This document shows positions 40,517 through 42,227 of a stretch of 64,000 nucleotides of DNA, piece after piece. The notes below the pieces were generated by a model. The model searched no databases. It saw only the letters and a list, made by a program, of their open reading frames with translations, and had not been told where the DNA came from. Within the stretch, counting starts at the first letter, position 1. The number at the start of each line of letters is the position of its first letter. The stretch comes from an uncultured Acidilobus sp. JCHS (GTDB taxonomy: Archaea > Thermoproteota > Thermoprotei_A > Sulfolobales > Acidilobaceae). Location of the stretch: contig AYMD01000008.1 of NCBI GenBank assembly GCA_000495735.1, positions 62,001-126,000 on the forward strand, read 5' to 3'. Both the position numbers and the translations under genes were made by a program.

Positions 40517-41383
40517 TTGGACCTATTAACTTCCCTGAGCCATATGAAGCTGACGGCAAGCTTGCCTAGGGCCAGGAGGAAACAGGAGCAACCAGACGTC
40601 CAAGCGACAGCGAGAAGGCGCAGGAGCTCGGCTGTGAGAAGGGCTACCACTGAAGATGACGTAAAGGCGCTCACCTCCTCCCTTTCAGAGAAGCTTGTGC
40701 CAGCCTTAGGCCTTGACCTGGTGGGTCTTAAGCCTGATGACGTGAAGGACATCATTTACTCAGTAGTGAGCTCGTTAGCGGAGTCCAGGTCCTCCAAGCT
40801 GACGGAGGAGGCCGCTATGAAGAGGATAATGGCCGCAAAGGACGGCCTTCTCAAGGCTGTCGCGGCTATGCTCCTCTCCAGGGAGAGGCCTCTGACAAGA
40901 GAGCAGCTTGAGTTCATAGTGGCGTACGCCCCTGAGGCCGCTGGTAGGGCCGCCCCTTACCTCTATCAGCAGGCCAAGAGGCTTAGAGCCGATGACATAA
41001 TAGCGTCCCTGAAGTCCCTGTGGTCCCAGTACGGCAGGCCTACACCGGTTGAGTGCCCCCGATGCGGCTTCAGGGCCGTGGCCCCTGACCTGACGTGTAT
41101 CGTCTGCGGGGCCCAGCTGAGCGAGGGGGAGATCAAGAGACATATGGGGTTCCCAAGGCTTCTGCTTGAGACCGCTAAGAGGCTTCACCCAAGGCTCGTG
41201 GAGGAGATGATAGCCGCTGGCTACGTCGTGTTGAACCACGAAGTGCACCCGCCAAGCTTGGCCCCCAAGTCAGGCTACGCACTCACGTTACACCTAAACA
41301 GGGATGAGAAGGAGGCCCTCAGGTCCCTGGTGAGCGGAGGCCCTAGGCCTGACCAGGATGCTGGCCTACCAGGCTCACGCTGA
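40517..41383 (+). CDS. Zinc-ribbon hypothetical protein
   Basis: Family not recognised. A basic, disordered N-terminus (RRRRSSAVRR near residue 33) leads to a helical region ~45-170 and a rubredoxin-like zinc ribbon CPRCGFRAVAPDLTCIVCG near 180-198, followed by another ~90-residue helical part. The composition suggests nucleic-acid binding. The start may be TTG 40517, about 25 bases after a TATA-like cattaattcc, or ATG 40544. Its 3' end overlaps the convergent TtuA-like gene by 41 bases. Confidence 0.55.
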   Translation: MDLLTSLSHMKLTASLPRARRKQEQPDVQATARRRRSSAVRRATTEDDVKALTSSLSEKLVPALGLDLVGLKPDDVKDIIYSVVSSLAESRSSKLTEEAAMKRIMAAKDGLLKAVAAMLLSRERPLTREQLEFIVAYAPEAAGRAAPYLYQQAKRLRADDIIASLKSLWSQYGRPTPVECPRCGFRAVAPDLTCIVCGAQLSEGEIKRHMGFPRLLLETAKRLHPRLVEEMIAAGYVVLNHEVHPPSLAPKSGYALTLHLNRDEKEALRSLVSGGPRPDQDAGLPGSR

Positions 41384-42227
41384 TCCTGTCAAGGCCTAAG
41401 GAAGCACAGTGGTCACAGATAGGCCCAGCCGAGGGGGCCCCACATGACATGCATAGTTGTGGGGCCTTAAACTCAGCTGCCAGCTTCGTCGAGAGCTCAA
41501 GGGCCCCATAGTCCATCTCAGGCCCCCCAGCTACTGACATGAAGACAGGCTTTGACCTGATAAGAACTCTACACGCTGGCTCAAGCCTCAGGCCCTCTAG
41601 GAACTCGGTTGCCGCCAGGACCTCCCTCTCTACTCTTGAGAAAACCTCTATGTGTTTAACTCCTAGTACTGAAAGCGTCGGCTGCGAGTCAAAGACCTCG
41701 TCAGGTCTACCCCTTAACAGAGCCTCAAGGAGCAGGACCGTTAGGTCAGTCCTCGCGAGGGGAGCAACGACGACGTCAGCCCCTATTAACCTCGCCGCCC
41801 TCGTCGACCAGGCCCTATCATACCTGACGCAGGAAATAATGTCTGCCTCCCTAGGAGGCCACGGCTTAACGTCAACAGTTACTCCCTCAAGGCCCTCGGG
41901 CAACTTAAATAATGAGCTGAGGCCCTCATAAAATGAGGGGATTGCCACGAGGACCCTGGACTTAAACCTCTTCTCGATGCTGGCCGTGAGGACCGCAGCG
42001 AGCAGCGAGGCTGACGGCGCAAATGAAGACACAGGTACAAGGAGCGTTGCCCTCAGGCTCAGTCCGGCTGACGCAAGGGACCTAGAGGCCTGCCTCATAA
42101 CCTCGTCCCTCAGACAGTGGACGCATAGGGCCTCGCCGCTGCTGGTCCTGAGGTAAAGGGCCCTTCTCCTCTTACACCTGTTGCAAATGACCTGGCTAGG
42201 CGTCTGTTCAGAGTCGGCAGACATCAT
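41343..42227 (-). CDS. TtuA/Ncs6-like protein with degraded PP-loop
   Basis: The architecture is that of TtuA/Ncs6 tRNA thiouridine synthetases: an N-terminal zinc finger CNRCKRRRALYLRTSSGEALC-type (CxxC at residues 15-18, CxxC near 35), a central alpha/beta domain, and a C-terminal finger CMSCG and CDHC near 255-272. Where the ATP-binding SGGKDS loop should be, the sequence reads VSSFAPSAS (near residue 66), so the pyrophosphatase loop and its Lys are lost. The middle also lacks the CxxC catalytic pair typical of active enzymes. It may be a non-catalytic partner or scaffold. A ggctttatacc element upstream is the likely TATA box. Confidence 0.6.
   Translation of the reverse strand: MMSADSEQTPSQVICNRCKRRRALYLRTSSGEALCVHCLRDEVMRQASRSLASAGLSLRATLLVPVSSFAPSASLLAAVLTASIEKRFKSRVLVAIPSFYEGLSSLFKLPEGLEGVTVDVKPWPPREADIISCVRYDRAWSTRAARLIGADVVVAPLARTDLTVLLLEALLRGRPDEVFDSQPTLSVLGVKHIEVFSRVEREVLAATEFLEGLRLEPACRVLIRSKPVFMSVAGGPEMDYGALELSTKLAAEFKAPQLCMSCGAPSAGPICDHCASLGLDRISVSLVGQHPGQA

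Follow-up and report, generated by a model that had tools for sequence, protein, structure and literature searches.

A PP-loop-less NcsA/TtuA paralogue kept across a large archaeal clade, and its possible role as a non-catalytic subunit of a tRNA thiolase

Archaeal NcsA, the thiolase of tRNA U34, is a dimer that is active by itself, and U34 thiolation in archaea has been ascribed to this enzyme alone (PMC10067955). In eukaryotes, Ctu1 is the active protein and Ctu2 is thought to replace the second protomer and to orient the tRNA (PMC10067955). When the structures are superposed, Ctu2 falls on the second protomer of NcsA; it retains the zinc sites and lacks the Fe-S cysteines, and the pairing of an active with an inactive subunit is said to have arisen with eukaryotes (PMC10067955). 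In a model of yeast Ncs2 the C-terminus contacts the core of the tRNA, and the protein is seen as a potential specificity factor (PMC10450187). No description of an inactive archaeal thiolase partner was found in the open-licence literature, and the novelty claimed here is bounded accordingly.

The window is the whole stretch of DNA that was analysed, 64,000 nucleotides from an uncultured Acidilobus sp. Its minus strand carries, at 41343-42227, an open reading frame beginning with ATG and encoding a pseudo-PP-loop NcsA/TtuA-like protein of 294 residues, referred to below as the dead paralogue; the assignment uses the reading frame, its homology and its orthologues. The window protein has a CxxC...CxxC finger at either end. 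The N-terminal zinc finger (C15, C18, C35 and C38; 42114-42185, minus strand) is of the LIM-like type found in TtuA, and its four cysteines are invariant in 24 orthologues, 22 of which match PF22082 with a best E of 1e-8. The C-terminal finger (C259, C262, C271 and C274; 41406-41453, minus strand) is evident in the sequence; its pattern occurs in 48 of 62 orthologues and is missing from the other 14, mostly outside the window protein's own family. In addition to the fingers, the conserved parts of the family are two segments: ExE, which the active enzymes share, and RPELEFSS, in which E237 is invariant. The mean net charge, taken over 62 orthologues, is approximately +10.

Searches with the window protein alone stayed below threshold: PF22082 (TtuA LIM) scored 12.2 bits against a cut-off of 27, TIGR00269 scored 13.3 bits against 62.75, and a search of PDB chains gave no match above threshold. 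Showing homology therefore needed a profile of the orthologue family. When 60 related genomes were searched in all six frames, 47 gave matches, the weakest being active paralogues, and 24 orthologues of the window protein were aligned (alignment A1), with identities to it of only 26-43%, a sign of fast divergence. The A1 profile matches TtuA and NcsA chains in the PDB over nearly their full length, with E-values from 8.7e-18 (TtuA PH0300) through 2e-16 (Methanococcus maripaludis NcsA) to 2.7e-10, and hhalign against active enzymes from related genomes gives a probability of 99.6% and an E-value of 7.8e-24. An AlphaFold2 model built from A1 (pLDDT 90.8, pTM 0.89) has TtuA or NcsA as all of its top 17 Foldseek matches, followed by TilS, with TM-scores of 0.68 to NcsA 6scy and about 0.62 to TtuA. 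The product of 41343-42227 is thus homologous over its full length to the tRNA thiolases TtuA and NcsA. NcsA profiles outscored TtuA profiles for 28 of the 29 members tested, a preference that may be due in part to the slower evolution of NcsA. The family has no curated entry in Pfam or NCBIfam.

To follow the loss of the catalytic motifs, 57 distinct orthologues and 31 active enzymes were aligned together. Every one of the 31 active enzymes has the PP-loop, SGG[KV]D[SG], and none of the 57 orthologues does. In the window protein, S67-S74 (SSFAPSAS; 42006-42029, minus strand) lies under the SGGK--DS of the active homologues, the aligned loop having two extra residues. The GHNxDD motif is replaced as well, mostly by PLTRTD-like segments. 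The first and second Fe-S cysteines occur in every active enzyme aligned, against 1/57 and 27/57 of the orthologues, and the third is kept in 37/57. The window protein has lost the first of the three and retains the second, C133 (41829-41831), and the third, C219 (41571-41573), both on the minus strand. Since neither the PP-loop nor the full Fe-S set is found, the dead paralogue is not counted as an active member of the family, and on its sequence adenylation of tRNA cannot be expected of it. As for the active enzymes themselves, the PP-loop reads SGGKDG in NcsA of the window's own genus and of genus g5 (L063, L059, L116, L117); the others compared have SGGKDS or, in one case, SGGVDS.

These results uphold an earlier note on this DNA, which, working from the letters of the window, had proposed a TtuA/Ncs6-like protein with zinc fingers at both termini, SSFAPS in place of SGGKDS (residues 67-72) and no central CxxC pair. 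Family and fingers were recovered as described, with a leaning towards NcsA, the loop replacement is the one aligned above, and C133 is all that remains of the central pair. The fold matches the PP-loop superfamily in Foldseek, and the alignment places no P-loop elsewhere in the protein.

The orthologues form one clade (support 100/100) in trees that include active NcsA and TtuA sequences. Next to this clade in the tree stand NcsA sequences from other Thermoproteota (93/95), but alternative placements are not rejected (p-AU 0.30-0.35). The ratio dN/dS is 0.07-0.15 in six orthologue pairs; the dead paralogue is maintained under purifying selection, and a pseudogene reading was rejected on these values. 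In G002, a single-contig genome of the same genus, the gene is split by two apparent frameshifts (L143, 6109-6920), which reflect either recent decay or sequencing error.

The distribution was examined in 121 genomes of the order, all at least 90% complete, and the dead paralogue was found in 59. It is present in all members examined of seven families, f1 (25 genomes), f2 (12), f3 (10), f4 (2), f5 (4), f8 (4) and f10 (2), and absent from all genomes examined of f6 (3), f7 (6), f9 (25) and f11 (28); we take f11 to be the Sulfolobaceae and f9 the Desulfurococcaceae. The weakest positives, G430 and G039, were checked by eye. The three genomes sampled from other families of the class also carry it, with the PP-loop lost, and a narrower scan of contigs gave ten named MAG loci. 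Among 397 genomes of the phylum no case was seen outside the class, where weak, degenerate members could hide among matches to active enzymes; the out-of-class matches that were inspected (G194, G072, G234, G075 and G300) are active enzymes.

A canonical crenarchaeal NcsA (above 400 bits, A6) accompanies the dead paralogue in 58 of 59 genomes, the exception being G004, a MAG split into about 220 contigs. TtuA occurs alongside the dead paralogue in 36 of the 59; the 23 holders that lack TtuA fall in several separate groups (genera g5 and g6 of f1, all of f5, and parts of f2, f3 and f8). Genomes with the dead paralogue thus repeatedly lack TtuA but hardly ever NcsA. NcsA is the sole active family member found in G007 and G042, both single-contig genomes; G007 has one NcsA and no detected TtuA. 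Families f6, f7 and f9, which have no dead paralogue, contain only a different, weaker NcsA-like type (278-307 bits). In f7 and f9 a distinct active NcsA/TtuA-like type with the motif PYLPC[ST]YCGV[FL]RRY was seen to replace canonical NcsA (L149, L150, L152-L155). All 28 genomes of f11 examined have canonical NcsA without the dead paralogue, so NcsA is not everywhere dependent on it. The co-occurrence with NcsA carries little weight, because nearly every genome has an NcsA-like enzyme, and one or two events may be all that lies behind the absence of both proteins from f6, f7 and f9.

The genome from which the window comes encodes active family enzymes with SGGKDS on contig C2 and SGGKDG on contig C8, and the dead paralogue and NcsA lie about 89 kb apart, with no operon. 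It also encodes a ThiS-like sulfur carrier; for Elp3 there was only a sub-threshold match. This NcsA gene adjoins two partial near-copies with N-filled gaps and repeated NUDIX-like genes (L061-L063, C8:191347-194162), a segment that is probably mis-assembled or duplicated. The earlier note had pictured a catalytically dead paralogue kept in the genome, perhaps as the partner of an active Ncs6, and had raised the matter of an active Ncs6 elsewhere in the genome and of the same loss in related crenarchaea. An active enzyme is indeed encoded elsewhere, the loss extends to every orthologue aligned, and retention throughout seven families under purifying selection fits a kept protein. The putative partnership is strengthened by the shared occurrence with NcsA and the independence from TtuA.

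Next to the dead paralogue, on the plus strand at 40517-41383, is a convergent gene for a zinc-ribbon protein of 288 residues, whose 3' end overlaps that of the dead paralogue gene by 41 bases. It belongs to an unnamed conserved family, gave no Pfam match above cut-off and is a neighbour rather than a demonstrated part of the system. It adjoins the dead paralogue in most loci, and it was rejected as a functional partner: 54 of 60 relatives have a member of its family, among them lineages that lack the dead paralogue, so the adjacency looks like ordinary synteny. In two other families, a small thioredoxin-like reading frame, assigned by eye, lies between the two genes (L138, 6992-7369; L141, 6413-6769).

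On the reading that we prefer, and regard as marginally probable, the dead paralogue serves the crenarchaeal thiolase of tRNA U34 as a non-catalytic subunit, paired with NcsA and helping to hold the tRNA. It arose through a single duplication in the NcsA/TtuA family, probably from the NcsA branch, and has lost the ability to bind ATP as well as an intact Fe-S site. The dead paralogue would stand where the NcsA homodimer has its second protomer, forming an asymmetric dimer with the NcsA of the same cell. In this dimer the NcsA subunit would adenylate and thiolate U34, and the dead subunit would help to bind and orient the tRNA through its finger or fingers and a basic surface. The same arrangement has been put forward for eukaryotic Ctu1/Ctu2 (Ncs6/Ncs2), and it is by analogy with that pair that we infer dimer formation, tRNA binding and an effect on thiolation; homology, fold, motif loss, single origin, selection and co-occurrence come directly from the analysis. 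Counting against the pairing are the lack of an operon, the NcsA of f11 that has no partner, the frameshifts in G002 and, from the literature, the archaeal NcsA of another lineage that is active alone (PMC10067955). The lack of an operon link fits a stand-alone pseudoenzyme, RNA-binding or regulatory, whose thiolase fold would bind tRNA or another RNA without any NcsA complex. Such a protein would make use of the retained fold, N-terminal finger and positive charge, and the fast divergence also suits it; the presence of canonical NcsA in nearly every holder is a pattern not required of a free RNA binder, though one that weighs little given how common NcsA is. This reading is possible, if unlikely.

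A different use of the retained residues, a new enzyme working without ATP, for example by relaying sulfur through C133 and C219, is quite improbable. The second and third Fe-S positions are kept in part of the family and the RPELEFSS and ExE segments are conserved, but the core has no new invariant catalytic set, its main invariants being E237 and the finger cysteines, and since neither the C133 nor the C219 position is universal, the clade is unlikely to share a chemistry based on these cysteines. Partnership with a TtuA-type enzyme, which makes s2U54, instead of NcsA would agree with membership of the same superfamily and with the 36 genomes that hold both proteins. It was set aside, as highly improbable, on the 23 genomes that keep the dead paralogue without TtuA; its persistence in TtuA-less single-contig genomes largely refutes such a partnership, and the dead paralogue is in any case closer to NcsA profiles. 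That the gene is a functionless, decaying relic is scarcely credible: the frameshifts in G002 and the absence from four families would be in keeping with decay, but the low dN/dS and a gene that is intact in almost every member of seven families are not.

Among known systems, the most distant likeness is to TilS (1wy5, 3a2k), a different tRNA enzyme, the lysidine synthetase, which gives a much weaker match confined to the fold of the PP-loop domain (TM 0.46-0.55). TtuA, the U54 thiolase (5mko, 3vrh, 5b4e), shares with the dead paralogue homology over the full length and the LIM-like N-terminal finger; it differs by the same motifs as NcsA does, is the less similar of the two and is absent from some of the genomes in which the dead paralogue is kept. 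NcsA (6scy) shares full-length homology, the closer fold, both zinc fingers and the ExE segment, whereas the dead paralogue lacks its PP-loop, its GHNxDD and its first Fe-S cysteine. The dead paralogue is not filed as Ctu2, because the Pfam family CTU2 (PF10288) finds nothing above cut-off in 40 genomes and is not among the Pfam matches of the A1 members; the likeness proposed is one of function. That the two descend from the same duplication, which would make the two-subunit U34 thiolase pre-eukaryotic and inherited from an archaeal ancestor, is very unlikely. In description, the dead paralogue nevertheless resembles Ctu2/Ncs2 as an inactive thiolase paralogue with zinc fingers and an incomplete set of Fe-S cysteines, of which it keeps a part where Ctu2 does not, and as a protein that co-exists with an active U34-type thiolase; the complex with NcsA would complete the likeness. 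That a large archaeal clade has kept an inactive paralogue alongside NcsA suggests that the same step, from one active protein to an active and an inactive one, was taken in archaea. NcsA and the dead paralogue would thus parallel the human pair of active CTU1 and inactive CTU2, and they offer a naturally thermostable system for work on such a pair, the human one having resisted purification.
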